NCBI GenBank assembly: GCA_013368375.1
Contig: JAACJP010000026.1
Coordinates: forward strand, 372,001 to 436,000
Direction: 5' to 3'
Length of the DNA stretch: 64,000 nucleotides
Source: Tricholomella constricta
Lineage: Eukaryota; Basidiomycota; Agaricomycetes; Agaricales; Lyophyllaceae
The stretch's first letter is position 1, and every line of letters begins with the position of its first letter. Shown piece after piece: positions 14,501 through 57,690 of this stretch. The notes beneath the pieces were generated by a model. It searched no databases, had not been told where the DNA came from, and worked only from the letters and a program-made list of their open reading frames with translations. Position numbers and translations under genes: made by a program.

Positions 14501-14738
14501 ATTCCGAGACCCCGAGCGTCACCATGGCCTACACCGAATTTCGCCTCTCAAAGACCGTGATGGTAGTCAGATATGCAGTATAATCCCTGTAGCCAACCTT
14601 CGCCGTAGTGTTCACCTCTTCCCAAAGTTCGGGCCTGTTGCCCCACAGGCATGGACAAGCAGTAATGTTCTCGATCTCTGTGACACCTTTTTTGTCAACA
14701 TTTTTACTGACAGACACTTATACCGTATACTGTATTAG
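11535..14738 (+). CDS. Plavaka-family transposase
   Basis: Five exons (11535-11763, 11823-12268, 12319-12606, 12660-14334, 14380-14738) give 998 aa with no disruption. The N terminus is a single zinc finger (CNGCGESL ... NHFRLSRDLRC). An acidic linker follows (SDQSDTPSKPTEEDEED), then a long RNase-H-like transposase region. Plavaka landmarks are TIVPIIISTDKTQLT (first catalytic Asp), YPIYLTIGNIPKEIR, CTCTGECPTCPAHR, DILHQLYQGIMKHL and a late WAQHYSFAIKLYGTTDN segment. Plavaka enzymes form a fungal branch related to CACTA/En-Spm-like cut-and-paste transposases. An in-frame ATG 13 codons upstream (11496) is an alternative start. Intact length and frame suggest the copy could still be functional. 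Confidence 0.85.
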
Positions 14739-33512: not shown

Positions 33513-36083
33513 TTACTTCCAAGACGACGTCAGGGTCTGAGAACCAGAGCCAGCAACCGTGGCCTGGCGGTTAGGGTCAGATTCCCAGGTGACCTGAGTT
33601 TATTGCTGTTAGCGATTGGGTCACGGGTGTTGGTGGGAGGGGACGTACGGCTCCGTTTGCAGCCTTACGGATAAACTTGTACTCGAACACCGTATTAGCA
33701 GGCAAGGAGACAGTCACCGACCAAACGGGGTACGAGGCCGAAGACATGGCGAGCTATTCACAAAAAGGTCAGATACATTGTTTCTGAGATTCTCATGAAA
33801 AGCGAACGCACAGCTGAGGCGGGAGCCCAAGTCCCAAGCTGAGAGATACTGCCAACGAGGAAGATGTTCTGCGCATATTGGTTAGCGAGGCGAGGCAAGT
33901 CGAGCGGGATTTCAATCAAGCTGTCAACGAACCTCGCCGAATACCGTCGTGGCGGTCTCTGCAAACGTCACAGCAACAGAGCCACCACCGCCACCACCGG
34001 ATCCCAAGGCACCCGTGTGGATGGCGATGGCGCTTCGAGCGGCAACTGTTGCAGTGAACGACCCCCCAGAAACGGTGTACGCAGCGCCTGTGCAAGAGCC
34101 TGATGAAGACTTTCCGCTAATGACATCGCAGTAGGTCCCACTCGGCAAGGAGGTGGAGAAGGTGGCCGTCCATGCGGAGTCGACGTTGTTGATTGCAACG
34201 TATCCAAGAGAACCTTGGGAAAATGCCGTTATTAAGAGAAATATGGGGAAGCAAGCAGTAAAAACCCACCACGGCCGAATGCGATTCGCTGGGATTGCGG
34301 GGCCACCCAGTTAGTAATTCCAGCGGTTCCCACTTTGTTCCTAAAGCCGACCATACCGCTGATGGCAACGAAGCGATGCTGGCAGTGCCATCCGCCACTG
34401 CCGCCGGTGGTCGAGCAGGTTCCGGAGCCTATGGAGATGGTTGTTAAAGTCAAGTCATTATTCGAAGAACAACATATAGACAAACCTCCGTTGGGTGGGC
34501 CAGCGTCGTTGTTGGAGAACGAAAAGCTCGACAGCACGGTCGGAGTTCCGTAAGGGTGAGCGAGCGAGAAAATGTGAGCAGTAATGTAGGTGTTCGACGG
34601 CGAATTGATATTCAAAGATCCTCCATTCTGGTACCCTCTGTTGTCAGAGAAGAGAATGACAAATAAAGGAATATGAGTGGTCCACACCCTTTCCGTATCA
34701 TGATTGGCGATAAAGACATTAGCTTGGTTACCTGAAACCCAGCCTGAAGGAATAAAATTCAGCGACGATCGATAAATATCGTGTGTCTACGTGAGCATTA
34801 CCTCGGCCGTCCAAATTTTGCAAGCTGGAAATACCTCCACCCAGGAAGGCATCTCTGACGGTGGTCGTATATCTGAATCTGGAGGAGGATAATTAGATGG
34901 CAACCACGACTGACAAGCAAATTGCACGAACTCCTGGACGTCGCCTGGTGAAGCAAGAGGTATTTATTTTCAGCCACGCGCGATCTTTGATCAATACACA
35001 CCATTTCCTGTGTATTCCGACGGCTGAACAGGTTCGCCTGATCCCCAAATAACCTCCTGAGTAATATAGGGCCTGGTTGAGAGACGGCTGATGATATTGC
35101 CAATGTCTCCAGCAGCGATGTCTAGTTACGATGTCGGTGGAATGCGTGAATTATGATAACTCATTACTTACGTTTTGCTGCATCCAAACGGAAACCATCT
35201 GCGCCGAGAGAGATGAGGTCGTTAGCGTATTGCGCAAGGCGACCTCGGACATAGTCCGTGTTGGTCGCGAGGCTGACCATATTATTATTGCTACGCAGGA
35301 GGAATCAGGAAACCTTATTTACTCAGCCAGGTTAACGAGTTCGCAGGTTTGTACTTGGTTTCTATCATTGTAATTGCTGATGTCGTCACCGGAGGTTAGC
35401 CCGCAGTGGTGGAAGTCCTGAAAAAAATCAAAACAAAGAAAGAAGAAGAAATGATGCACCTACCTGGGTTTGATAGATTCCTGGATAGTTGTAGTGCGAG
35501 AATGAACTGCCGCCGACGCCGGTGCCGGACTCAATACCCGCCATGTGGTTGAACAGCGTGTCTGATGCATAACGGTCAGAACGACCATAGCCACGTGAGC
35601 TGATCGCGAATACTGACCAACGATGACTTTGACACCCGCAGAGTGGCACTTGGAGATCATGCTAGAAAAAGTCGCACGTGAGCAATGGACAATAAGATAC
35701 ATAGACCGAAATTACTTTTGGAACTGGCTGCGGTTGCCGCGCTTCGAGGTGAGCGTGTAAGAGACCGGCTGGTAATCGGTCCACCACTGAGAACCCTGGA
35801 TATGCTCCGCGGGAGGGCTCACTGAAAATCCTTGTCAATATACGAGTAATTGCCGTAATATTTTATCCATACCTTGAACGAAACCGTAGCCAGCGGGTCC
35901 AATAAAATTGGCGCATTCCGACGCGATGCTATCCCAGGTCCATTCGAACATCTGAATGATGACCGACTTCGAGCCAGACGGCGCACGAGAAGTCAACGTC
36001 GCATTGTCGAAAGTCGGCCTAGCAAGCGCAGAGTACGACAACGACAACGCTACCAACGACGTGAACGACGCTGAAAGCTTCAT
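33513..36083 (-). CDS. Secreted alpha-amylase (GH13) with C-terminal CBM20 starch-binding domain, copy A
   Basis: The start is ATG 36083 and the stop TAA at 33513. A signal peptide ([20 protein letters not shown]) is followed by the GH13 barrel. Landmarks are [30 protein letters not shown] (region I), [11 protein letters not shown] (nucleophile Asp), [11 protein letters not shown] (acid/base Glu) and FIANHDTER (transition-state Asp). A Gly/Ser linker ([11 protein letters not shown]) leads to a CBM20 with [22 protein letters not shown] and the ligand Trp pair region WESDPNRQ. It cuts internal alpha-1,4 bonds of starch outside the cell. It shares intron positions and near-identical segments with the copy at 42241-44848, which faces away from it. 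Some introns use GTTCGT donors, which occur at the same places in both copies. Confidence 0.93.
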
Positions 36084-37623: not shown

Positions 37624-37630
37624 AAGTTAG
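37624..37630. repeat. Left 7-bp target-site duplication (AAGTTAG)
   Basis: AAGTTAG directly precedes the left inverted repeat and recurs at 41250-41256 directly after the right one. Confidence 0.85.
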
Positions 37631-37645
37631 TGGGGAGGCGCACCG
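37631..37645 (+). repeat. Left terminal inverted repeat of the 3.6-kb element
   Basis: TGGGGAGGCGCACCG is an exact reverse complement of 41235-41249. Confidence 0.85.
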
Positions 37646-38097
37646 CCGCTTCAGGTAGTGGTTTATTTGTATGTGCTGTTTCTCCACCAATGTATCAATT
37701 TACATGGAAAATCAATATTTTGGGATGGATACCTCACTTTTAGATAAGATTTATGTCTAGCTCGGGTTTTAAAGTTATTGCGCTGGGGGTCCTTGCTGTG
37801 TTTTTTTGATATTCGCGTGCAAACCCTATTTTTAACACAAACCCCAGAGTAATAAAAACAAATATAAAAATCGAAAGCAAGGATCCCCAAGAGAAAGGTC
37901 AGAATAATATCTTACGGCGTTTAATAGGGCGTGAACGGGTGTGAGGAAAGAGAAATATTGATTTAGATTCTGCGACGCGAAACCTAATTAAGAGATTATG
38001 TAACGCGTGTCTTGGACGCGTCGAGGGCTGCCCGATAGTCAACAAAACACATCTCATACCCCTTATCGCAAAGGCTTAACCTAACCTAACTCTTCTA

Positions 38098-41087
38098 ATG
38101 GGTCGAGAATACAAGAAGCGAAGAAAAATCTCGCGGAAACATCGGAAATCGACCGTCAAAAACCTGGAAAAGGCGCGTAATCAGCAAAGAAGTCCACTGG
38201 GAGACAACACAAATACTGTTCCACCGTCACCGACCAAGGTTATCAATAAGCTGAAGAAGGAGAAGAGGGACCTCCAGAAGAAGGTCGAACAGTCAAACCT
38301 GAAGTACTGGAATGCACGGCGACGGCACCTGAGATTGGAGAAAGCATCCACTGCACGAAAGGTCGACCTAAAGCAGGCGAAGGCAGATGCCACTCGTCTG
38401 CGTGGGGTGGTAAATATGCTGGGAAGGAACCTGGAAGATGTCAAGAACACTGCAGACGATACAATGTCACTGCTACAGGCAAGAGTTAACTTGGGTTTTC
38501 TCAATGAATAAGCGTCACTCACTGCTGTCTGTAGGCGCGAATTAAAGCCCTTCTCCAAACACAACATGATCTCACCTATCGTCGCATGATTCTCTGGAAG
38601 CGATTCCGGCGGCTCGAGGTGGCGAAACGAAGACTCCAACGGCAGATCCACGAAAGAGCCAGGAAGCATCCTACCACGTTCTGCATGATGCACAAAGGGC
38701 GCTATACCCCGGCTGCACGTTCTCTGGCTCGTCTTATGGTATCCACGGGCACTGCTGAAGCCAAAGTCGGTAGTGCTTTGGTGGAAATTGGAAATGCCCT
38801 GGGAATTAAGGTTGATAGGCGTATGAACAAGCGCTCGGTTCAGCGCTGTATTCTTGAGAAAGGGGTGGCTGCAGACATACAGCTGGTCTATGAAATCCTC
38901 AAGTCACCAAGTACGATTTTCTATACATATACCAGTTATCTTTAACTGACGACTCTCGAAGAAATTACCTACAGCTCTGATTCGACCTCTCATCGACATA
39001 TTGAGTATGAATGCCGCACCATCGCACTCCAGGTCGTCGACTACGCAAATCCTTCAGCAGAACCAGAATGGAAATCGCGCACCCTTGGTGTCGGTACCTC
39101 AATCAACCATGCTAGCCAAACACAGGTGGACGGATTGAAACAACGTCTCCGAGAGCTGGCGGAAGTGTTTAATAACAGTGAATTGGCAAAACGAGAAGGC
39201 CTACGTTTTGTTCCCGATGACTTTGCCTTTCGGTTAATTGGCACGAGCGGTGACCATGCTGCCGACCAGAAGAAAAGCCACGAGATACTCCGGGTATGGC
39301 GCCTCGAAGTAATCCTCATGCGCCTTGGGGAGGATGCGCTGCTTCAGATGGATGTGGGTCGTGTACTTGCCACCCTGATAGCCATGAAAGCAAAGCAGGT
39401 GGAGTCGTACGGTGGGCAGGCTGCCTGGGACGTGCTTTCCGCCGATGAGAAGGCTGGTGCAGATACTCAGATGATTTGCGACATCGGAAAACAAGTCTTT
39501 GATGCCCTTCCCGAAGCTGAACAAGCACGATTGATGCGGTTTATTCGCACAGGATGCTGCATGCACAAAGATTTAAACTGCGTAAAAGGTGGCGCTAAAG
39601 CGATGGCAGAAATGTGGGGTAGGCTCAAGAAAACTGCACCAATTATCCTCGCAAACAAAGATAATGCCGCGGTACTTGCCAACCGATCATCTGGAATGGA
39701 ACCTAGCACAGCCGAGAAACGAGCAGAAGAGGTTTCGAAACGTGGCGGCGTTCACGCTACGACCCTGGGTGGAATGATTTTCAAGAACAAAGATACGAAG
39801 AAGGGCCAACAGGATACCTACCTCTGGTATATGGAACAGCACATCGGGTACCGCATCTCGTTCCCAGACGTGAGCAACACAAGATATGGTTCGCATGGCG
39901 ATGCTGCCGCAACCATTATCGTATATCGCGACACTTTTCTCTCCTTCATGGAAGCCATTCGGGACGCAAAAGACAAACCTGGCGAAACAAACATCGAAAA
40001 GAACTTCTCAGCAGCTATCAAGGACGTACCAACACTCACCGAACTTTGTGTTCTCGCATTATACAACATTGCCGTCTCTCGACCGTTCATGGCACACGTC
40101 CGGACACACGACAACCTTCTAAAATTACGTGAATTCTTCGAAAAGAAGGCAACATTTCTTCAATCAATCATCGACGAACCTTCTCTCTGGACCGGAGCAG
40201 ATGTCTCGCATGAAACGGGATGCCTAGATGGTCAGGAATGGGATGAGTGGTCGCTCAAGGTCATAAACACAATCGAAATCCTCAAACCGCAGCTTCCCGA
40301 TCTCGACCATGCCATCACAGCTTTTGTGCAAGGTGCCCGCGAAACATTTGTCGAGCGCTTCTCGGACGAGTTCAAAGAGGGCGGTGATATCGACAAGATG
40401 ACTGAAAGCGAGCTGGATACACTCTACTTCTCGTCAACAAACGATGCGAATGAGGGTGGCTTGGGTAGCTGGCGACGTGGGCAGGCAAGGCGGCCTGCGG
40501 AAACCTTGCTCAAATTCAACGCGTCTTTTATGGCCTCACGAAATGATACCGAAACCTTTATTCAACATAAGCTCACGGAAGAAGAAGACGAACTTTACCT
40601 CATGAGAACAGCTAGGCAACGCGATGCAAGTGGACACCAAAAAGCACTGAAAGCGGCACAAGTTCGAGCAGACGAGGAAAAGATCACGGAGAACAGGAGG
40701 AAAGAGACGCAGAGGGGGGAAAAGCGACAGAAACACGCCACCGAACTTATGGAAGCTGTCAAGGACCTCGCTCTCACGGATGCCGAGATCGAGAACCTTC
40801 GAAGCGACGCGTTGGTTCTCCAGTTAGAGTGTCATCGTGAGATTGAGAAGCAACGGTTGACAAGTGACAGTGGGAACACCTCGGAAACCGCAGTGGAGAC
40901 AATCCCATTGAAGAGCCATATGAAGAACAAAGCCCAGAGGATACCAGAGTTGAAGAAAGCTGTGGCTAGGTTTCATGCAAGAGGTGAGACGAAGGAAGGA
41001 GCATATGCATTACTTGGTAGGGTTCTGGAAACTGGTAGGCAGAGCGGAGATGATCATATTTATGAGTCAGATAATGATGATTTATAG
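38098..41087 (+). CDS. Putative transposase of an unnamed fungal family (960 aa)
   Basis: Three exons (38098-38478, 38535-38910, 38962-41087) give 960 aa. The first intron is GC-AG (GCAAGA donor). The N terminus is very basic (MGREYKKRRKISRKHRKS) and leads into a long coiled coil (about residues 45-170) and a DNA-binding-like helical stretch (MNKRSVQRCILEKGV). The core has conserved-looking polar motifs: GTSGDHAADQKKSHEIL, then GCCMHKDLNCVKGG, then VSNTRYGSHGDAA, and late TNDANEGGLGSWRR. These are candidates for an RNase-H-fold DDE active site, but I cannot assign the residues. A second coiled coil and an acidic end (ESDNDDL) follow. I recall related proteins only as unnamed agaricomycete hypotheticals. 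The assignment as a transposase rests on the flanking inverted repeats and target duplication. Confidence 0.75.
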
Positions 41088-41234
41088 CTTACTTATTGTA
41101 CATTCTTATGAAATACCCTAATACAGTTTTCATCCATAGGAAACACCACAATGTCGTTTGCGCGTCGAGGAGAACACGATTTGGCAAGTTTGAAGTGGCT
41201 GTGCTATGACTAAGCTGCCGCAACCATTTGCGGA

Positions 41235-41249
41235 CGGTGCGCCTCCCCA
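41235..41249 (-). repeat. Right terminal inverted repeat of the 3.6-kb element
   Basis: It reads TGGGGAGGCGCACCG on the minus strand, identical to 37631-37645. Confidence 0.85.
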
Positions 41250-41256
41250 AAGTTAG
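41250..41256. repeat. Right 7-bp target-site duplication (AAGTTAG)
   Basis: It matches 37624-37630 exactly and abuts the right inverted repeat. Confidence 0.85.
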
Positions 41257-42240: not shown

Positions 42241-44848
42241 ATGAAGCTCTTCGCGTCATTTGCATCTTTGATAGCGTTGTCGTGGTCGTACACTGCATCT
42301 GCTGGGCCGGATTTCGGGAACGCAACAAACGACTCGTCCAATTCTCGCACTCGGTCTGGCTCGAAGTCCGTCATCATCCAGATGTTTGGCTGGACTTGGG
42401 ACAGCGTCGCGTCGGAATGCACCGATTTCATTGGACCCGCTGGCTACGGTTTCGTTCAAGGTATCGGCAAACGACGACCTAACATTCACTCGTAAATTGA
42501 CTAGGACATTCAGTGAGCCCTCCTGCAGAGCACATCCAAGGTTCTCAGTGGTGGACCGACTACCAGCCGGTTTCCTACACGCTCACCTCGAAGCGCGGCA
42601 ACCGCGACCAGTTCCAAAAGTAATTCCGGGACGAAACGCGTTCTATAACATTCTCATCGTGGTGCCTTTTCAGCATGATATCCGCCTGCCAATCTGCCGG
42701 AGTCAAGGTCATCGCAGGTCAGCATTCATCACTGATGCACTCAATGATGGACATTCTAAACTCCAATCACGATGTCATCTAAAGACACGCTGTTCAACCA
42801 CATGGCGGGTATCGAATCCGGAACTGGCATCGGAGGCAGTTCATTCTCACACTATAATTATCCCGGAATCTTCCAAGTTCAGGTCAGTGCATTGTTCCGT
42901 TTATCTTTCTTTGTCACATGTTTTTTTAGAATTTCCATCACTGCGGGCTGACCTATGGGAACGAGATTGTGAACTATAGCGACAGAGCTCAAGTGCAAAC
43001 CTGCGAACTCGTTAAACTTGCGGAGTAGATGAGCTATTTAGACCTACCTGGACTGATGCTAACCTTATTTTAATCAGTCTCGCGACCGACACAGAATACG
43101 TCCGAGGTCGTCTCGCGCAATACGCCAATGACCTTATCTCGCTCGGGATAGATGGCCTTCGTATAGATGCAGCAAAACGTAAGATTCACACCTACTGGTC
43201 TTCCAGGTCTCATCAACATCATATAACCAGACATCGCTGCTGAGGACATTGGCAATATCCTCAACCGTCTCTCAACCAGGCCCTATATCACTCAGGAAGT
43301 TATTTGGGGACCAGGCGAACCCATTCAGCCATCTGAATACACAGGAAATGGTGTGTATTGATTGATAGATCGCGCGTGATGAAGAACTCATACTTTTCGC
43401 TTCTCCAGGCGACGTGCAGGAGTTCGTGTAATTTGCGTGTCAGTCGGGTTTTCTGTCTAAAGTTTCTCTTCAGGTTCAGATATACGACCGCCATCAAGGA
43501 TGCCTTCCTGGGTGTGGATGGAGGTATCTCCAACTTGCAGTACTTAGATGGCCGAGGTAAGCTTCGCGTGGACGCTAGGCCAGATCCAATCGTCGTTGAA
43601 ATCATCTCTTCAGGCTGGGTTCCAGGTCATCAGGCCAATGTCTTTGTAGCGAACCACGACACAGAGAGGGTGTGTTTACTCCTTCGTGCTTGTCAGTCTC
43701 CATTCTAACTGTGGAGGGCAACAGAACGGAGGATCATTGAACTTCCATTCGCCGTCGAACACCTATATCATTGCCCATGTTTTCTCGCTTGCACACCCTT
43801 ACGGAACGCCAACCGTACTTTCGAGCTTTTCGTTCTCCGACCACGACGCTGGCCCACCCAGCGGAGGTCTGTATATGTGTCCTCTTCATCTAATCATCAT
43901 TCCTTAATTACCATCTTCTTAGGTTCCGGAAGCTGCTCGACCGCGAGGATGAATGGTGGATGGCTCTGCCAGCATCGCTTCGTTGCTATTAGTGGCATGG
44001 TCGGCTTTAGGAACAACGTAGGATCTGCTGGAATCACGAACTGGGTGGCCCCACAATCCCAGCGAATTGCATTCGGTCGTGGTAGGCTCTATCAACTGAC
44101 TTCTGTCTTATTGACGTCGCCTAAACGATGAATCGTCCCCCAGGATCTGCTGGATACGTCGCAATCAATAACGTCGACTCTGCCTGGACAACCACCTTCT
44201 TCACCTCCTTGCCGAGTGGGATATATTGCGATGTCATTGGTGGAAAGCCTTCGTCAGGCTCTTGTACAGGCGCTGCATACACCGTTTTTGAAGGGTCGTT
44301 CACTGCAACGGTTGCCGCTCGGAGTGCCATTGCCATCCACACGGGTGCCTTGGGGTCCGGTGGTGGCGGCGGCGAGCCAGGAAACGGTTCTGTTGCTGTG
44401 ACTTTCGCAGAGACCGCCACCACGGTCTTCGGCGAAGTTCGTTCATAGATTAATTTGTGTCGACTTGCATCACCGCGCTGATCACCATTTGCAGAACATC
44501 TTCCTCGTTGGCAGTGTCTCTCAACTTGGGTCTTGGGCTCCCGCTTCAGCTGTGCGTCGTCCCTCACAAGGCTGTTGACCATATTTACATCTGACAATCA
44601 TTCATGAATAGCTCGCTCTGTCTGCGGCTTCATATCCTATTTGGACGGTGACCGTCTCTTTACCTGCCAATTCGGTGTTCGAGTACAAGTTCATCCGCAA
44701 GGCAGAAGATGGAACGGTATGTCCCCTCTCGCCACGCAGCCTGAATTACTGGCTCACATTGGCACAGGTCTCCTGGGAGTCCGATCCCAACCGCCAAGCC
44801 ACAATTTCTGCCTCCGGTTCTCAGACCTTGACGTCCTCCTGGAAATAG
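42241..44848 (+). CDS. Secreted alpha-amylase (GH13) with C-terminal CBM20, copy B
   Basis: This is a paralogue of the gene at 33513-36083, in opposite orientation. It has the same exon-intron structure and a signal peptide [21 protein letters not shown]. Catalytic landmarks are all present: [21 protein letters not shown] (nucleophile Asp kept; Phe and Leu of copy A's GFRLD are Leu and Ile here), [11 protein letters not shown] (Glu) and FVANHDTER (Asp). The linker is longer ([16 protein letters not shown]). The CBM20 has [27 protein letters not shown] and WESDPNRQ. Every junction I checked is in frame, so both copies look functional. Substitutions near the nucleophile might shift specificity. 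Duplication by inversion is inferred from the mirrored arrangement. Confidence 0.93.
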
Positions 44849-46236: not shown

Positions 46237-46341
46237 CAAGGGGCTGCGCCCGGAAGATTCCGTAACACTGACTACCCCCCCTCCCCTTCCATCTGATGCA
46301 GCCGGAGTCCTCGTCAGGGTCATCTACATCAGGAAGGTACC
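46237..46341 (+). repeat. Left 105-bp terminal inverted repeat
   Basis: It begins CAAGGGGCTGCGCCCGG and is a perfect reverse complement of 57586-57690. The match stops at position 106. Confidence 0.93.
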
Positions 46342-46365
46342 GCTCGCTTAGATGAACAATGTTTA

Positions 46366-49300
46366 CTATCTACGTTGTACTTTAGTGGGAGACGGCTGCC
46401 TCGACTGTGAGTATGTAGTCGAAGTTGACACATTAGACACCCCTCTTTTCCTGCCTTCGCGCTCATCCTCTACCATCGCCTGAATGTCATCGCTGCCAAA
46501 AACTCCCTCTGTATCTCTGTAGTAATCAGTATCTTCTGGATCAACACCGATTTTTACTTCTTCCTCGCGTGTAATATGCGACGTCACGATGAGTTCCAAA
46601 GGGAGGACTTCGCGTTGTCCATCATCCGCTGTATGGTGTGTATTAAGGTGATGTTTGAGATTATATTTCCATATTATCTTGTGCCATCAGAACGAGGGGG
46701 ACAGAGGGCGCAATGAATCGGAACATTTGTGGATGGTGTACGGTCAGAAAATCTGGCCGCTTTGGAGTAATTCATCTCCTTGTAATGATATTTGCAGCAT
46801 GATGTCGTCGTTGGAGCTTTGGATGGCGGCGTGAATAGGTGAATATCACATCCCGATGAATCAAGTCCACACCAACCGCACGGGTTGCTTCCAACCTGAT
46901 GAAAAATGAGAAAGAATTAGTAAAAGGATTGGTTTATAGCGCACCTCGATAACACCCTTTTCCTGTACATCATAGTGTGCTCTTAGAAGATGAATTCCAA
47001 CATGATTCCGCATATTTTGAAGTAGTAGTGTTTTTGCGCAAAGAAGGCAGTCGACTTTTGAATTTCCAGGAAGTTTGACCAGTGTTAGCGGTGCGGGTAA
47101 GTCCTTCTTGGATAGGTGGAATTGAGGTGTCCCATCGAGAAGGGTGTAAGGAAGCGGTTTAGATTGACTTGCTATTATGGGGAGACGTTGTACATTGTCG
47201 ACAATTTCTTCTTCGTCAGGATTCAGCTCGTTCCAAGCACGGTCGAATACTGCCTTCAGTTCGGTGTTGCGAAGGGACCACACGGGCATCAGATCATCTT
47301 CACTCCCATCATCTGCCTCATCCTTTCCATCGAAACAGACGGAGGGTGAAAGGAGATGGAAGATGCGGCCTAGAATCCTGGTCATGAAATTGCGCTTTTG
47401 AAGTGTACGATCTTTGCTGTCCTGGATTTGAATATACTTCCTTGACCACCACCACTCGAAATCAGCTTCTTTGTCTCCATCGGGCGCATGCTGCGGGAAT
47501 ATTTCAAGAAATTGAACAGCGATAGATATGGCCTTTGAGCCATTTTCATCGAGATCATCTTCGTTAACACTGGCAAGGTTGATTTTTGAGGCGCCCTGCC
47601 GAAAGTTTAAAGCCTCGACCACAGCCAAACATATTTCGTCAGATACACGGACTAGTACAGCTCCTAGATCTCCAGATTTTACAAACTCATCGGGCGAGTC
47701 CAGTGTATCTCCCGAAGAGTTGATTCTGTCCGAGGATCCACGCAAGGACTGTGCGATAGTAACTCCACGGGCACGGAGCGGTCGAACCGTACTGAGCTGC
47801 CGACGTTCTTTATCTCCGCACAAGTATTCCTTTATCAACACAGGAAGGTAGAATTGCTGTCCGTCAATCGCAAGATAGTGGGCTTTGTTCTTCCCCGGCG
47901 ATGGATTGAGTTCCTCTGCCTCATCAAGGCGGTTGTGTTCCTCGGCATCGACAGTGTCCCGAGCGTCTTCGAATTCATTTTCAGCATCAAGATCTTGACC
48001 ACCGGGTCGTGGAAGACTCCCGATCAACATACCGACGTCCTCCTCCTCCTCTACTTCATCAGAGTCTGAGCTATTAAAGCTGACATACGCCTTTCCACCA
48101 GGCCGAAGGTGGTCTGTCTCTGGATCTGAAAAGAGCTTGTGGAAGTCGGTATACCCTTGTCTGGACTGAATTGTTTCATCATCACTTTATTCGCATCATC
48201 CCTTCCCGCTGAGTATTCCTTCACCACATTAACATCTCCAACGCGGACATTGCCAAGCCATGATTTTGGATTAATGTGATCGACGCCGCGGGCATTGACA
48301 AGGTTGCGACGGATGTGGCCACGATCGAGATCAGGGTATCGTTGGAATATCGCGTCTATCTCGGCGCCAATACTGAGCTTCTGTGCGAGTTGGAGGATAT
48401 CAAAATTACGAGCATGATCCTGTGTACGCGCATGTGAGAAAACATTCTCGAGTCGGTCTGTTCCCTCGAACAAAATATAATAATTTATATCTGGGTCGAC
48501 GAACTGCAGCCGCACGAGATTGAATAGGATACTTTTGACAATTGCTTGAGAGTCAGCTGGGAGGGCGCTCGTCAAGAATCCAAGCCGATGCATCCAATAG
48601 AGGGCTGTTACGAGGTGCGAATATGTGGAAAGTGAACGGATTTGTTGGGATAATGTCGTTTGAACCTCAACGAATGGGAATAAAAAATAACTGAGGACAT
48701 TGGCAACAAAGCCAGCAATTTTTACTCGTTCCCGCTTTGATGGTAGCAGGACCTTTGGGATTTTCGTGGAAATCTCGTGCAGACTTTGGATCAGGTTTAC
48801 GGCTTTGGGAACATTTTGCTTGTCCGCCGGATTAAGCAATGAACTCGCCTCTTTTAGATCCATTGTCTCCTGCAGTGCGTCGAGGGTGTCCTCTCTTGTA
48901 AGACTCGTGTTCCCGACCTGGATTCCCATTGGCGATCGAAGCATAGTGGCGAAGCGTTTCACAATGTGCTTGGGATCGCACGTCCCAATAATTCTGCGTT
49001 TGCCAGTTCTGCAATTTACCCCGGGTAAGCTGTATAAAATTCGGCCCATTTCCGATGCGCGATCCAGGTCCTGCGTTAAACAGAGCAGAAATCGAAGTTT
49101 TCGAAAAGAGGATTCACCATCGGTCGCAAGGTTTACAACGCCTCCGTGAACCTTTGCACCCGATGGATTTTCGTGATATTCCTCCAATGCAGCGCTCACC
49201 CACTCAACCATCGCGTCCGCTGTCTCAGTTTTACAGGAGGCTGAAAGAACAAGTGGAACAACGTGGTAGTTCTGCTCGTCTGTTACTGGCGCGATCCCCA

Positions 49301-50202
49301 GGACTGTAGCGTCCTTTCCACAGTGACAGGTAGGTGGCGCCTCATTTGGGGGGTAGAGTGCCTTCGCTGCATTTTTGAGGTCGTCAATAACTTCAACTTG
49401 TTTTTTGATAGAGGAAGAATTCTCGCGGCATAAGCCCATCAGTGAATTTCGGCCATGATCGAACCGTATGGCCTGCTCGATTGCAACATCATCCATCATA
49501 AAGACCTGTCCAACGTTGGGGTTTTGGGGTGGTTTCCGTCCTCGTTTCCCAAGGAATGAGGGAATATTCATCCGAATGTCGCTTCTCTCGGGAACTCCAA
49601 GTGAAATCAAGAGTTCTGGAATGACCTTTCTCTCTCGTAGTGTCGTTAAAGATGGGTAGGCTTCTGCCTTTTGGAGCACATAAAGAAGCCGTGGTCCACC
49701 GAGCGCTTTAATAAGAAACGCGATGTCAAACTCCCTGTCTGTCCAGCCCGAGCGAGGCCTATACGTCCCAGAAATAGCCATGTGAAGTTTCATACAAATA
49801 GTATCGATGCTTGCCCCATTCCGAAGCGCCGTTGCTAAGATCTTGAGACGCCTGCAATTTTTTTTTGCGAAAGTAGCATGACCATCCGTTTATAGTTGTT
49901 GACCATCTTCTGAAGTCGGCCGATTTTCCGTTTCTGATTCATGATCTACATATTGTTAAACAACAGATTATCTCGTGAAATAAATTGGAAAGGCACCTCT
50001 AATTTCATCGAGTTGTTCTTCTTGGTGGCCAAAATTAAGGCGGTCTGTAACTGTCGAGCGTTGCGGTAAGAGTACGGGGTGTGGGGTGCAGCGCTTTCTG
50101 GATTAGCCCGGCTCATAAATTTCCTTAGTTGTTAGGAGTTAAGCAGTGAATTGCAAGCCGTGCAGATTCCATGCTCTTTCTCGACCGCAGACGCTAGAAC
50201 GT
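46366..50202 (-). pseudogene. P/THAP9-like transposase, downstream (3') part of the gene
   Basis: It continues the gene begun at 57352, after the retrotransposon insertion. The main open block (48051-49793) carries an RNase-H-fold series: FMMDDVAIEQAIRFD plus NSLMGLCRE (first Asp), VNLATDGESSFRKLRF, TCDPKHIVKRFATMLRS, LLNPADKQNVPKAVNL and TDRLENVFSHARTQDHARN (late Glu). This resembles the P-element/THAP9 order, with their DPPHLLK-like and LEN-F motifs. Downstream (46366-48030) are acidic segments, a zinc finger CLLCAKTLLLQNMRNHVGIH, and further Cys/His pairs ending in a WKYNLKHH motif. Frame breaks by single-base loss occur at the 9-T run 49858-49866, near 48154-48156, and near 46684-46685. 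The N-terminal piece contains PYSYRNARQLQTALIL. Non-functional as assembled. Confidence 0.8.
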
Positions 50203-50396
50203 TGGAGCTTGCCAAGTTGATCCCTTGACCTGACTTAGTTGAGAGCGTGGACGGCAGAAAGAGCTGTATTCCTTGTTCCTACTGCCCCCAATTGGGCGTA
50301 ACTATGACTAAGCATCCAAGGTTGCTGCCAAACACAACCAAACAATGTGCTTCCCTTTGCGTTCTGGCGCCCGGAGTGTCGCTCCCCGACACTCCA
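50203..50396 (-). repeat. 3' LTR (194 bp) of the nested Ty3/gypsy element
   Basis: It starts TGGAG and ends CTCCA. It differs from the 5' LTR (56316-56509) by three base changes and a 5-nt loop inversion near its right end. Confidence 0.92.
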
Positions 50397-50411
50397 TGTG
50401 CCCCCCCTCCG
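50397..50411 (-). other. Polypurine tract of the nested retrotransposon
   Basis: The minus strand reads CGGAGGGGGGCACA directly before the 3' LTR, where plus-strand DNA synthesis would be primed. Confidence 0.65.
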
Positions 50412-50454
50412 TGTGGCGGCGTCCGCGCCGCCCAGACTAAGTCGTTTCGCTCGT

Positions 50455-51616
50455 TCATTGGTTTGAAGTGCTCTGCGAGGCCTCCCGTGCCACCCGCGCT
50501 GTCTCCTCAGCCGCTACCCTCCCTTCAGCTGCCTTCTGTTCCTCCGCGAGTTTGGTGCCCTGCCGCGGAAGGAACCTCCTCAAACGCCGCGCGCTAAAGC
50601 TCCCTGCGATCGCATCGCCCTCCGTAGTCTCCAGTGTGTATGAATTGACATTGCGGTCGACGACGCGTCGCGGAACCGACCATTTCGGCAAGAGTTTGCG
50701 TTCCGTCTTGAAGGTGAAGTCGAGATCGCTTCGGTACACTTGTACGAGGTCCCCCTTCTTGAATACAACCTCTTGCTTGGACTCCGCGAGAACCCGCTTG
50801 TCGAACGCACTCTTGCGTTTCACCGCGTGCTGCACCGCCGCTGCGTAACCATCTAGCCGTTGTTGCGCGGTATAGGCCATCTGCGTCGCAACCTCCTCCC
50901 CTTGCAGGGCCGTGATACTGTCTGCGATCGGCGTTCTCGGTGTGTTGACGACCAAGCCCAACAGGAGCTCCTTCGGCTTGTAGTCCAGGGCCGGCAACAG
51001 TCTCCAGTTCAAAATTTTGATGGCTTCGTCGAAATATGATGGCCATGACCTTGGCAAGTCCGCCGCGCTCATGTGCTTGTAGTCATCCTCCCCGAGATCC
51101 GGCGAACATAGCCGTTTCAGCACGTGCAACAACAGCTTGTTGGTGCCCTCCACCAACCCGTTGACCCATGGTGAATACGCCGCGACGACGTGCATTTCTG
51201 TTCCCCACTCCCCGCAAAAAGCCCTAACCTCCGCATTGTCGAAATGCTTCCCCCCGTCCACCATGAGTGCCTCCGATGGGGCGTACGCATGAAAGATGTT
51301 GGATAACGCGCTGACTGTCGTCTTCCCGGTGCCGGCCGACTTATACTTGAAGCCCCAAACGTGCTGCGAGTAAGTATCAAGATACAAGCCCACGGTGTGG
51401 TAGCCTCCGATCCCGACCGGCATGGACAGATAGTCCCCTACGAGAAGCTCGAACGCATGGCGCCGTGTGATTGGGTTCAGGAGCGCATGCAGGTGTGTCT
51501 CTCCGAAATTCTTGCAACGCCCGCAGTCTTTGATGCCTTGAATGATTGATGCATCTAGTCCCGGGCTCCAAATCGTGGCGGTGAGTTTCTTCTTGATTGC
51601 ATCCCTCTGCCAATGC
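50455..51616 (-). pseudogene. Integrase region of the nested Ty3/gypsy pol
   Basis: The zinc-binding HHCC part is CGRCKNFGETH with an upstream HW. The catalytic core has LLVGDYLSM (Asp), EALMVDGGKHFDN (Asp) and SPWVNGLVEGTNKL (Glu), the D,D-35-E set that inserts retroviral-type DNA. The C-terminal part contains KRKSAFDKRVLAESK and a basic-rich tail. The frame is cut off from RT-RNase H by a one-base loss at a C run (51617-51619). The segment is otherwise open for over 380 codons. Confidence 0.85.
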
Positions 51617-51617
51617 C

Positions 51618-54215
51618 CTGTTCCACCTTCACCAGCTCTGTCGCCTCTTTACGGGTTACGCATTCCACCCACGCTCTCGCTCTCGCCCTACGACCTTCTC
51701 CCACACGCCACAACTTCCCGTCGTCTATCGTGTACTCCGATGCACGGTGCCGTGCCCGTCGCCTGTCGGTTGTGCTGCGTTCGTGACCAAGCTCGAGCAG
51801 CGCCTCGATGACCTCCAGAAAGATGGGCTCGTCGGCGAACCTCTGCCGTAACTCGCTCTCCTCCTCGACCGACGCCATTTGGAATATATCGTGCGTCAAG
51901 CCGGTGACCGCCTCCCAATCCTCACACACCGTCCACTCACTACCATCACCTTCCTCCTTCGCAGCCCCTTCCGCAGCCCTGCTCAACCCGTCTGCCACCA
52001 CGTTTATCTTCCCGGCCACATGGCGAACGTCCACTATCTGGTGTGCCAATATCCCGTCCCTCCATCGTGCGTGTGTGGCACTTAACTTATCATTCATCAG
52101 GACGTCCCGAAGGGCTTGACAGTCGGTTTCGATGATGACCGGGAAGCCCCACACCGTATCGGAGAACTTGTCGAGTCCGAATTTCAACGCTGCAAACTCC
52201 AGCAGGAAAGGCTTGTATTTTTCTTCAGCGGACGATGTTCGTTTCGAAGCGAATCCTATTGGGTGTGGCTTCGTGACCGACACCCCGTTCATTGTTGTTG
52301 TGGTAAACGGTTGGGCGAGAACGGCGCCGAACGCGTCGACACATCCGTCCGTGGTGATAACGAATGGCGTGCCGTCCCATCTTGGTGCCCTCAGCACTGG
52401 CTCAGAGGTGAGTATCTTCTTCAGGGCTAAAAAGCTTTCTGTGTGTTCTGATTGCCACCTGTCCACCAGCTTGAAGTTCACCATTGCTCGTCGGTAAACT
52501 GACTTCGATGCTCCAGCCGGTACCTCCACCTCCCTCAGCAGGTTCCTAAGCGGCGCCTCCACCTTCGCGTACCCTTGTATCAGATCCCGGAACCACCCCG
52601 TCAACCCCAAGAACGCCGCCAAATTCTGTGCGTCGGCCGGCTGCTTCCAGTTGACGATCGCTGTCAGCTTGGCCATGTCGGGCTGCACTCCGTCCGGTCC
52701 CACTGACGCCCCCGCGAACACTCCTGTAGTCGCGAACAATATCGTCTTCGCTGCCGATATGGACAGTTTTTTCTCCCTGCACCTTCCGAATATGGCCCCC
52801 AAATTCGTCATCATCTCTCTAAAGTCATCCGACGCCGTGCCGCCATCATCCACAAACAACTCGAGCGTTTCCTGGACCAATAAATCGTGAAGGGTGCGCG
52901 CCGTCATTTGCGCGAACGTGGAGGGGGCCCCCGTCAGGCCGAAGGGCATTTTCCTATACCAAAAGTACCCTCGGCCCTCCACATAGAATGCCGTGTACGG
53001 TCTCGACTCCTCGGCGACTTCCACTGTGTAGAACCCGGACGCGAAGTCGAATAATGATACCCATCTCTTCCCACTGAGCTTCTGTTGTTTGGCGCGAATG
53101 TCGCCCTGTGGCATTGGTGCGATCTTCGTAATTTTGTTAATCTCCGCAAAGTTCTGACATATCCTCCATTTTGGTTCGGCTAGGTTCTCGTCATCGACCT
53201 TACGGGCTTCCGGTCTGTCGGGCATTGGGAAATGGGGTTCAAGACCATTCGCTACACACTGGTCATTGACCCTGTGTTGGAGTTCTTCCAGAGTGAGGCC
53301 GGCGCCCTGGTGTGCTTTTTGGGCGAGCGTCGTAGGTGATACGCACTTCACCTGTCCCGGTTCGCACTGCTCGATTATTCCGGCGGCAAGCATTTCGTCG
53401 ATCTTCTCATGGAGATATGTCCGTTGAGGTGGTGTGAGCGGTCGTTGGTGTACTTTCTTTGCGAATGTTGCGTCCGTTGGTATGTCTAGAGTGTGAACCG
53501 CGCCTTCAACTGCCAGGACCTCCCCCACCGATAGCGCAAACACGTCTGCATTCCTCGCTATGAACTCCTGCACTTCCGCCCTCTGCTCCTCCGAAAGGTC
53601 GTCCCCCACCGTGACCTGCTTCAACACCTCCGCTACTCTCGCCTCCTGGAATGGGTCAGTTCGTCTGGTGAAGATCCCCGTCTCCACTAAGTTGATGTCC
53701 GTTGGCAACTCCGTTCCGGCCTCCCCTGTGTCCTCTTCCATGCCTATCACACAAACAGGCGATGGAGCCGACTCCCCTGTTATACCATCCTTCGCTTCCA
53801 CCGATGCCGCGACTTGGGCCAGCTCACGGGACTCGTTGTTGAGCGGAGCTTCCGGCCTGCCGTCGTCAACGGTGGATGTGCCGGCTTCGTCAATCCGCTG
53901 GTCAGCTGGCCCGCTGTTCTCTCCCTCACCCTCGGCTTGTTCCGTATTCGGCTCAGGTTCCCCTGCTACTCCGGTCTCTGCCAACCCTTCCAGTGCCGCC
54001 TCGTCCCCGTCGTGTGCTTGCTCGACTTCCTCCTTCTCTGCCCTTTCGACGCATGGTGCCTCCCTTTCGTCCCTTCTCCGACGTCCTTCATTGCTTCTCG
54101 ACCCTCCCCCACCTTCGAGGCGCCGAGGTTCCCCGTATCCCAAATAGTGGATGGTTTCGTTGCCAAATTGAGTTTCTCGAAATTTGTTGGCGAGTGTCGC
54201 TTCCTTGTCCCCCAC
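51618..54215 (-). pseudogene. Reverse transcriptase and RNase H region of the nested Ty3/gypsy pol
   Basis: This open segment of about 865 codons has an acidic Glu/Gly-rich linker. The RT follows: KWRICQNFAEINK, WVSLFDFASGFY (first Asp), MPFGLTGAPSTFAQM and LELFVDDGGTAS, with FVDD at the active site where Y(I/L)DD is usual. Then comes RNase H (VITTDGCVDAFGAVLAQ, LLEFAALKFGLDKF, IIETDCQALRD, GKINVVADGLSR). It copies element RNA into DNA. It is out of frame with the protease before it (break near 54208-54217) and the integrase after it. Confidence 0.88.
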
Positions 54216-54700
54216 TTGATAGTGACCTCATTTCTCCTGTAGTAGTGCACCGCATCGAACGCTAGGATGAGGGGTTTCCCGACAAGGAATGACCAGCTTC
54301 CCCCACTATCGAAGATTTCGAACGACCCTTCCAATCGCACCCCGCCCAGGTTGATCACTCCCTTCCACACCGCGTCCGCCCTCACAATCTTCCCGTCCGC
54401 CATTCGGAGTTTCCGCTTGGAAGGTAACGTCTCACCCAGCCTATGCTTCACTTTCTCGTACACTCGACTGCACATCGCTGCCACCATTGTGCCATCGTCA
54501 AACATCCCCCACAGCCTCACCACTTCCCCTCCCGGACCTTCCAAACTTACAACTTGCACGAAAGGTTCGACAACATTCCCCTCCTCATCTGTCAGTTTCT
54601 TATGTCCCGCGGTATACAGATTCACGATGTTTGATTCGTCGGCAGCAGTTACATCGTCAAGAAGTATGTCGTGGGTTTCGACTGTGTCCCCCTCCGCCAC
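54210..54700 (-). pseudogene. Aspartic-protease region of the nested Ty3/gypsy pol
   Basis: It begins MAEGDTVETHDILLDD about 70 bp downstream of the gag stop. The protease-like fold has LWGMFDDGTMVAAM in place of the usual D(T/S)G active-site loop, and SFLVGKPLILAFDAVHYY. The DDG variant is seen in some fungal gypsy elements as I recall, but activity is uncertain. It joins the RT frame only after a one-base shift near 54208-54217. Confidence 0.7.
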
Positions 54701-54767
54701 CGATCGCCGGTGGGGACCTTACTGTCCTCGTTCTCGTGTGATCCCGGGGCCGTCCGTTCGTGTGCGT

Positions 54768-56130
54768 TTACGCGGACGGCCCGTCCCCTTTTCCCTGCAT
54801 CTCCGTGATTCCTGACCCTGTCACCTCCTCAACCGTGCCGTAATCGTCAATGGCCACATAGCGTACCGCGGCTGCTTGGTCCCTGGCTTCCCTCAGTATG
54901 TTCGTGCAGATCGCTCTCCAGCGCTGCTCGTGAGGGTGCAGCTGTTTGTTTTCCGGGGTCGGGCAGTTGAAGCTGAGGTGCCCGCGTCCCGGGTGATCGC
55001 GTCCGCTGAGGCCGCACTTGTAACATTCGTTATTGTTGACCTTGCTCGTTCCCGGTCTCAAGGGGTATGGCGTTAATTCCGTGACCGGCCCTCCCGCACC
55101 GTGAGTCTTCGCCCAGGCCTGCTGTTGCGCTTGATGGGCGAGGCGACCCGCGTCCGTGTCAGGGTGGTGCGGCAACGATGTGTATCTGGCCCTGAATGCG
55201 GCCTTCTCTTCGGCAGTAAATTGGCGCGGCGGTCCCCTAGCGTAGTTTCCTGGTCCGTTCCCTCTGTTTGCAGTGCCCGGTCCGAAGAGTGTGGTGCCCA
55301 CTGCGGGCGGGATGGTGGCCGTACCGAGCATCGTGTTGGCCAGTTGTCTCCCCAAATTGGTCCTCGGCGTCTCGAGTTGCGCGATACGCCCCTTCACGGC
55401 GTCGAGTATGTCCTTCCTCTTTTTCTCCTCCTCCACTCTCTCTTTAATGTACGTGACGCTGATTCCTCTGACTGCCGCCAGGAACAGTGCCCAGGTCGCG
55501 TACTCGTCGGCTAGCTTTGCTTTGATCACCATCGGCAAGCCTTTCCGGACCTGTCCAACGTACACCGCTCCGGCTTCGACACCCGCCTCCTTCGCCAACC
55601 GTCCCATCTCATCCGCCCACGCAACGTGCGTATAAACCTTCCGCCCGGATACGATCCTCATCTCCCCTAATTCCGCTTCCTTGAGTTTCGTCGTGAGTAG
55701 TTCCTCTTCATACTCGCCTGCCGTCTTCATAACGATCGTCGCTTTCGGCCAGCGTGCATCGTACGCCGCTTTCAGCAGGGGCCAAGTTGACTTCGCCGCG
55801 GATCCAGGCCAGAGAACCACTGGTCGGCGACGCTGTCCGAATGGAGGAAGTTTTCGAACTCTGCGAGTTTGTGGGCGACATCCTTCCCGGCCATTGCCCT
55901 GCAAAAGGCTCGCCAAAAATCCTGCGCGTTCTCATTCTCACGCAAATCCCCCCAGAACGGTTCGATGAGCATCGCGGCCATTTCGGATGGATCCTGTGGT
56001 TCGTACAAAGGGTTTGCTTGCGGTGCAGGTGATGTAAAAGGGCTGGATTGACTTGAGTGGAGGCCGAGAGAGTCTGGTGCCGGTGAAGGGTGGAGCTTGA
56101 GGGCTCGCTTGATGGGGGCAAGGGGCTTTG
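54768..56130 (-). pseudogene. Gag of the nested Ty3/gypsy element
   Basis: Capsid-like region: EPFWGDLRENENAQDFWRAF, then KTAGEYEEELLTTKLKEAEL. A Gly/Arg-rich segment and a CCHC-type zinc knuckle follow (ECYKCGLSGRDHPGRGHLSF then NC). The protein coats element RNA. The first 100 codons lie in another frame from the rest; a one-base loss near 55795-55803 explains this. No clear ATG heads the N-terminal frame. Confidence 0.75.
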
Positions 56131-56297
56131 AGGCCTTCTCGAGGCAAAACGACCGTTAATACGGAACTGGGTCCTGTGGGCCAGCGCGCAGCGTTTTTTC
56201 TTGTCGGACTTGGCTTTTCTTGTAGACTTCGAAACTTTTTTCTTTGAACTTTGAACTTTGAAAATCTGAAAACTTGGTTGCTTTAAAATGAGTTGAA

Positions 56298-56313
56298 ATC
56301 GCTGTCGTCACCA
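56298..56313 (-). other. Primer-binding site of the nested retrotransposon
   Basis: The minus strand reads TGGTGACGACAGCGAT, two bases inside the 5' LTR. TGG would pair with a tRNA CCA end. The priming tRNA is not identified. Confidence 0.6.
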
Positions 56314-56315
56314 GA

Positions 56316-56509
56316 TGGAGCTTGCCAAGTTGATCCCTTGACCTGACTTAGTTGAGAGCGCGGACGGCAGAAAGAGCTGTATTCCTTGTTCCTACTGCCC
56401 CCAATTGGGCGTAACTATGACTAAGCATCCAAGGTTGCTGCCAAACACAACCAAACAATGCGCTTCCCTTTGCGTTCTGGCGCCCGGAGTGTCGGGGAGC
56501 AACACTCCA
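56316..56509 (-). repeat. 5' LTR (194 bp) of the nested Ty3/gypsy element
   Basis: A TG...CA-bounded direct repeat of 50203-50396. ACGT follows at 56510-56513, matching 50199-50202. Confidence 0.92.
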
Positions 56510-57352
56510 ACGTGCGCGCAGGAATTAGAGCGGAGGGTGATCCATTTTGAATCTTCTGAGAAACCAATCAGTTTCCATCCTATCCCGACGCGGTCGTGCT
56601 GTTGATACGCATATGTTGCCCAAACAGAGCCCGCCATCCATTCGACGGGCTGTCCTGCACATTTTTCGTGGTTATCTTTGGGGTCCGGCTTGTCAATTTC
56701 CTCATCCTGATCTGGGTCATCCAGAACGTTTATCTCCCAGCGTCCCAGCGATCCATGAAAGCCAATGTCGCTAACCTCTAAGCGCTCGAGGTCCAGAATA
56801 CCCAAATGATCATTAGGGTTGTCGATTAGACTCTCATGATAAGGTCTGAGATTAGCGCGTGAGGCACGCGGAGTTAAGTCCAAAGCAACATAGTCCATCG
56901 GGGAGAGCGAGTTCGTCTCAGTGTAGTGGTCGTCTTCAGGTAAGCGTTAACCAAATTCATAATAAAATAAAGAAGTACGGCTTACAAGGTAGGGAATCTG
57001 CCTCGGGCATTTGACCAAATGATGAACTTGACGCGATCGGTTGTCTGAATCCAACCGTCTCTAAAATCGCTTCCGTTCGTAGCTTCTCTTCACCGGATTC
57101 CCTCTGCCTATCTCTCCTGCTCTTTTCTTTGCTACACTGTTTGCTCCCGCGGTGTTGGCGTAGTCGTGCTGGAGATCGATTGCCTGCGAGGGCAATATAC
57201 AGACAACATAGATCACATTGTATAACTTCTGTGTTGGAGCCGACTTCCGTATAAATCTTGAAGTTAAGGTTTGCACCAGATGGATTCTGGAAGGAAACAG
57301 TCTCGACTGGGTCATTAGCAATGGCATTGTACAATTTGGGTCCTTGAGGCAT
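56510..57352 (-). pseudogene. P/THAP9-like transposase, upstream (5') part of the gene
   Basis: Start ATG 57352 (MPQGPKLYNAIANDP). Exon 1 (56986-57352) has a Cys2-His-Cys finger: CDLC, then LRQHRGSKQC. An intron with a GTAAGC donor leads to exon 2 (56510-56934: YDDHYTETNSLSPMDYVALD, an acidic DDPDQDEEIDKPDPKD, SNSCAHV). Exon 2 is cut at SNSCAHV by the retrotransposon and resumes at 50202. A short zinc finger at the N terminus is usual for DNA transposases and would bind the inverted repeats. An in-frame ATG at 57406 is an alternative start. Confidence 0.75.
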
Positions 57353-57585
57353 TGCACGACGTAGAACTTGAAGAGAATGGCTGGGGAACAGGGTAAAAAA
57401 CAGCACAATAATACCGATGCCTCAAGACTTAATCCCACCCAAACCCCGGTACGCATCACAACATGTGAAAGAATGTGTTCATACCAAGTTCATACATCTC
57501 TGCAAAGGACGGAAGCACAGAGACGAAGGAGACTTGAAGGAGACAAAGACTGTATGATGTTCGCAGATCTCATGATCTAGCCGAG

Positions 57586-57690
57586 GGTACCTTCCTGATG
57601 TAGATGACCCTGACGAGGACTCCGGCTGCATCAGATGGAAGGGGAGGGGGGGTAGTCAGTGTTACGGAATCTTCCGGGCGCAGCCCCTTG
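57586..57690 (-). repeat. Right 105-bp terminal inverted repeat
   Basis: Perfect reverse complement of 46237-46341. Confidence 0.93.

Follow-up and report, generated by a model that had tools for sequence, protein, structure and literature searches.

What kind of enzyme moves a DNA transposon that has perfect inverted ends and an intact gene resembling no transposase family that could be named from its sequence? The question is raised by a 3,619-bp element of the mushroom Tricholomella constricta, which lies in a 64,000-nucleotide stretch of contig JAACJP010000026.1 (assembly GCA_013368375.1, positions 372,001 to 436,000; hereafter the window). We conclude that this element of an Agaricomycete is very probably a hAT-like DNA transposon of autonomous type that moves by cut and paste, in which one spliced gene encodes a DDE transposase whose RNase-H fold is interrupted by a helical insertion, and which inserts with a 7-bp stagger.

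An intact spliced gene between perfect inverted repeats

A preliminary description of the window had reported inverted repeats, an exact AAGTTAG duplication and one intact 960-amino-acid gene, and we recovered each of them. The element is bounded by perfect 15-bp terminal inverted repeats (TIRs) and flanked by exact AAGTTAG copies (Table 1). Its three-exon gene encodes 962 amino acids and is free of internal stops once both predicted introns are removed; unspliced, the longest start-to-stop open reading frame (ORF) of the element measures 653 amino acids. The gene model is supported by the full-length alignment of a Gymnopilus dilepis protein (P0003, 956 amino acids), which shares 65% identity with the element protein across query residues 1–962. 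Scanning the whole window for 12-bp inverted ends with exact 7–9-bp flank repeats yielded two pairs, the element and one other, and one of ten mononucleotide shuffles also yielded one pair. That the element is real and not a product of chance follows from the genome, in which all nine full-length elements carry exact 7-bp duplications.

Copies, an empty site and recent movement

The preliminary description had proposed a genome-wide check for copies and empty sites, and this was productive. A protein search of the genome (G000; 44.1 Mb in 118 contigs) found at least 25 places; 25 loci were scanned for inverted ends with flank repeats, and one nested pair (L057 and L058) was read separately. 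Nine elements of 3,619–3,707 bp are full length (L050–L058, the window copy and eight relatives), and the 7-bp duplication, exact in all of them, is genuine and repeated in the relatives. Inverted ends with flank repeats were found at none of the other 16 loci (L059–L074), each of which is a partial match to the query.

The genome also holds three short copies with similar ends (L042, L043 and L044; 902–991 bp, longest stop-free stretch 107–119 amino acids). L043 has an exact CATAATA pair after a later insertion, L053, is set aside; the flanks of L042 and L044 were read and neither has an exact pair. L044 is linked to the family by its ends alone: blastn did not align it with the window element, and TIR matches with two mismatches are about as frequent in the genome as in the control. 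Taken together, exact 7-bp duplications flank 10 of the 12 TIR-bounded copies with readable flanks. Pattern searches added five inverted TIR pairs of 939–958 bp (four of the L056 type and one on contig C24; Table 1), which from their sequence probably represent related subfamilies in non-autonomous form. In the duplications of L050–L058 and L043, 19 of 20 letters at positions 2 and 6 are A or T, or 17 of 18 given that two of the ten sites overlap and nine are independent; this pattern was noticed post hoc in a small sample and we treat it as a lead. The usual hAT target pattern is nTnnnnAn.

An empty site is directly visible because L058 inserted into the end of an identical copy: it sits inside the right TIR of L057 with its own GAGGCAT duplication, and beyond it come the remaining outer TIR of L057 and then, directly, the outer CATGTAG. 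L057 and L058 are identical across 3,672 bp, L056 and L058 differ at 2 of 3,682 positions, and 8 of 3,707 positions distinguish L054 from L055, whose duplications are not the same. Since near-identical copies carry different duplications, these relatives moved recently. The recent insertion claimed for the window copy itself is not established: apart from about 85 bp that match the end of a short copy at 86%, the closest sequence elsewhere in the genome reaches 74% identity. Within its subfamily the window copy alone is intact, and its closest long relative, on contig C40, is in pieces 60–74% identical. This broken relative (L045 and L046, G000 C40:153578-167031) is interrupted by about 2.7 kb and about 7.6 kb of other DNA, and a search for its right end found none. 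Comparisons between the diverged lineages show synonymous sites at or close to saturation (pS 0.73–0.88, with 20 of 21 pairs beyond correction) and a pN that is low by comparison (0.16–0.49); the proteins have therefore been kept under selection.

Homologues without a name

Homology searches, which scored the roughly 8,000 candidates with the most shared words, gave 255 homologues by protein search (E ≤ 0.001) and 237 by profile search (E ≤ 0.01); we describe the best 120 of each. Names among these listed matches are 'hypothetical', 'uncharacterized' or 'unnamed' protein, and one listed homologue (P0034) bears a generic CCHC label and also has a retrotransposon-gag domain (PF03732). The three hosts that we looked up are all Agaricomycetes, from three orders, and the remaining listed hosts are presumably mushroom-forming Agaricomycetes as well. 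Pfam matched no transposase model in the 962-residue protein, nor in 36 family members among the 25 families listed for them (last entry E 0.63), and hAT, KDZ and Plavaka proteins from the same genome, used as positive controls, matched their own models. We found no description of the family in the open-access literature, a search that left Repbase and most subscription papers outside, nor in the passages available to us of PMC10051438, PMC7473861, PMC8305134 and PMC4905642. It could be among the families counted without individual names as 'hAT', 'Dada' or 'Unknown' in other mushrooms (PMC7473861).

A predicted hAT-type fold

An alignment of homologues had been proposed as a way to find invariant acidic residues, and in ours (A1, 69 rows) two aspartates and a glutamate are nearly invariant, together with CxxH and T-R-aromatic-x-S motifs (Table 1). 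Structure prediction, likewise proposed, confidently returned an RNase-H fold with an all-helical insertion domain ahead of the putative catalytic glutamate, and its best structural match by far was Hermes. In the model, about 100 residues with five helices separate the second aspartate from CxxH, and the N-terminus is a predicted coiled coil.

The predicted fold is thus of hAT type, and for this reason the element does have a link to a known superfamily. The statement that its transposase fits no nameable family holds for the curated models and fails for the fold: the protein is unrecognisable by sequence models and hAT-like by its prediction. Its predicted RNase-H core, which an all-helical insertion interrupts ahead of the glutamate, is common to Hermes and other hATs, as is the combination of a DDE triad with a C/DxxH motif. 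Its TRYGS resembles the TRWxS that hATs have at this position. A TRWxS-like motif (TRWTSH) was seen in 1 of 54 hAT-type proteins from our searches, most of which are C-terminal pieces; that protein, P0209, has a DUF659 match (E 1.9e-6) that falls short of the model's cut-off.

Table 1. Features of the element in window coordinates, with additional TIR pairs elsewhere in the genome. Residue counts refer to alignment A1.
Feature	Position	Strand	Remarks
Left target site duplication, AAGTTAG	37624..37630	.	
Whole transposon, 3,619 bp	37631..41249	+	
Left TIR, TGGGGAGGCGCACCG	37631..37645	+	
Exon 1, transposase gene	38098..38484	+	start codon 38098
Intron 1, predicted	38485..38534	+	GT...AG, sequence-based
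Exon 2	38535..38910	+	
Intron 2, predicted	38911..38961	+	GT...AG, sequence-based
Exon 3	38962..41087	+	carries DDE domain; stop codon 41085-41087
Putative catalytic D1, D261	38979..38981	+	residue 6 of exon-3 reading; D in 64/69; first strand of model
Putative catalytic D2, D352, GDHAADQKK	39252..39254	+	D in 67/69; just past fourth strand of model
CxxH motif, C453..H456, GCCMHKDLN	39555..39566	+	C 69/69, H 69/69
T-R-aromatic-x-S motif, TRYGS	39879..39893	+	aromatic 69/69 (48 Y, 21 F), R 64/69
Putative catalytic E, E752, NDANEGGLG	40452..40454	+	E in 68/69; in helix after helical insertion (model)
Right TIR	41235..41249	-	perfect reverse complement of left TIR
Right target site duplication, AAGTTAG	41250..41256	.	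exact
Additional inverted TIR pair	G000 C3:927046-927985		
Additional inverted TIR pair	G000 C51:120917-121856		
Additional inverted TIR pair	G000 C15:11639-12577		
Additional inverted TIR pair	G000 C17:299565-300511		
Additional inverted TIR pair	G000 C24:616275-617232		

Inside hAT, beside it or elsewhere

How closely the element is tied to hATs is finely balanced. We give about even odds to its being a hAT proper, on a distant branch of the kind that hAT7 forms in rust fungi, with dimerisation and BED domains too diverged to be recognised. The Hermes match, the CxxH motif and the TRWxS-like motif speak for this, as does the existence of hATs with 5-, 6- and 7-bp target site duplications (TSDs), hAT7 of the Pucciniales, described in 2025, having 7 bp (PMC12730594, in the part available). 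The length of the duplication alone is therefore not new, and its description as uncommon needs qualifying: the usual, not universal, hAT length is 8 bp, but 7 bp occurs in rust hAT7 (PMC12730594) and 6–7 bp in Dada (PMC3706591), according to the portions of these papers that we saw. The element and hAT7, which we know by description only, both occur in basidiomycetes and both have 7-bp TSDs; however, hAT7 owes its place among hATs to the similarity of its transposase, which groups with Ac/Tam3 (PMC12730594), whereas the element has no detectable similarity to hAT models. No hAT model appeared among the Pfam families listed for the 36 members, although hATs were recognised at 39 places in the same genome. 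The hAT dimerisation domain (PF05699) matched neither the window protein nor these listed families, hhalign of the family profile against a hAT C-terminal profile found nothing, and the positive control (L083) was detected at 7.7e-8; active Marasmius hATs have DUF659 and the dimerisation region (PMC9674265, seen in part). Because the search for this domain came up empty, we do not file the element as a hAT member. It also departs from hATs in its TGGGGA... ends, its duplication of 7 bp, its coiled-coil N-terminus (no BED zinc finger was matched by Pfam in the 962-residue protein or P0003) and its five-helix stretch before CxxH. The corresponding stretch of Hermes is shorter. We entertain, tentatively and at somewhat less than even odds, a superfamily-rank lineage that is widespread in Agaricomycetes and sister to hAT, characterised by a Hermes-like core, a five-helix segment separating D2 from CxxH, a coiled coil in place of BED, no dimerisation domain, a fixed 7-bp stagger and A/T at positions 2 and 6.

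Other known families fit poorly. Dada, which occurs in Agaricomycetes and which we compare by published description, shares with the element a 6–7-bp TSD and a C/DxxH motif, and in the Dadas of Laccaria D2 and DxxH are set apart by additional sequence (PMC3706591); 15 Dada families are listed in Agaricus bisporus (PMC7473861). We nevertheless consider membership very unlikely. In the parts of PMC3706591 that we saw, Dada has CCCC and CCHC zinc fingers, small nuclear RNA (snRNA) or transfer RNA (tRNA) gene targets and a spacing (D567-D635-E811) with a shorter D2–E distance than D261-D352-E752 of the element. The insert of Dada is a DnaQ exonuclease. The window protein and the families listed for the 36 members include no such exonuclease and no Pfam zinc finger, a search by cysteine pattern not having been made. 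Eight rejoined target sites contain no tRNA (snRNA was not tested on them), and ten copies searched with their flanks contain no tRNA and no Rfam RNA, although some Dadas are not named after an RNA target (PMC3706591). Membership of KDZ or Plavaka is less probable still. Both are abundant in these fungi (the genome has 157 KDZ places, and the window itself holds a Plavaka transposase), but their models (PF18758 and PF18759) are unmatched by the window protein at E ≤ 10 and among the listed families, and detect their own members in the genome with best E values of 6.5e-67 and 1.4e-85, respectively.

Neighbouring elements

The Plavaka transposase lies at 12654-14738 (PF18759, E 1.4e-85). A second transposon-like unit, at 46237-57690, has inverted ends CAAGGGGCTGCGCCCG and an exact 8-bp ATCCGAGC duplication. 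Its two minus-strand ORFs, 46861-48030 and 48051-49793, have no Pfam match at E ≤ 1, the longer being transposase-like by eye, and Gypsy-like reverse transcriptase and integrase ORFs lie within the unit at 50455-55916. The element itself is flanked in opposite orientations by two similar secreted-protein N-termini, 35835-36083 (minus) and 42241-42495 (plus), which look alpha-amylase-like by eye.

Discussion

Mechanistically, the element is best read as a hAT-like transposon that moves by cut and paste and inserts with a stagger of 7 bp. We infer that the N-terminal part of the transposase (coiled coil and a small helical domain) would bind and pair the TGGGGA... ends, that the enzyme would excise them, probably by way of flanking hairpins like those of hATs, and that their joining to target DNA would be staggered by 7 bp, repair of which would leave the duplication. 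The short copies of 0.9–1 kb may be mobilised by the same enzymes.

If the lineage is indeed sister to hAT, orphan miniature inverted-repeat transposable elements of mushrooms with 7-bp duplications would be its non-autonomous members. Abr1 is possibly one of these: it too is a mushroom element, likened here by description only, and its 1999 description reportedly gave a 7-bp TSD. A later source, seen in part, terms this non-autonomous Agaricus bisporus element hAT-type (PMC10051438).

A widespread, recently mobile transposon lineage of mushrooms goes under the name 'hypothetical protein', missed by the curated models that we searched. With the predicted hAT fold as a guide, the family becomes recognisable to those who annotate genomes, and staggers of 7 and 8 bp can be compared naturally in a single fold. 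Judging from their sequences, the transposase and its matching short elements could be tried as a mutagenesis tool in basidiomycetes.
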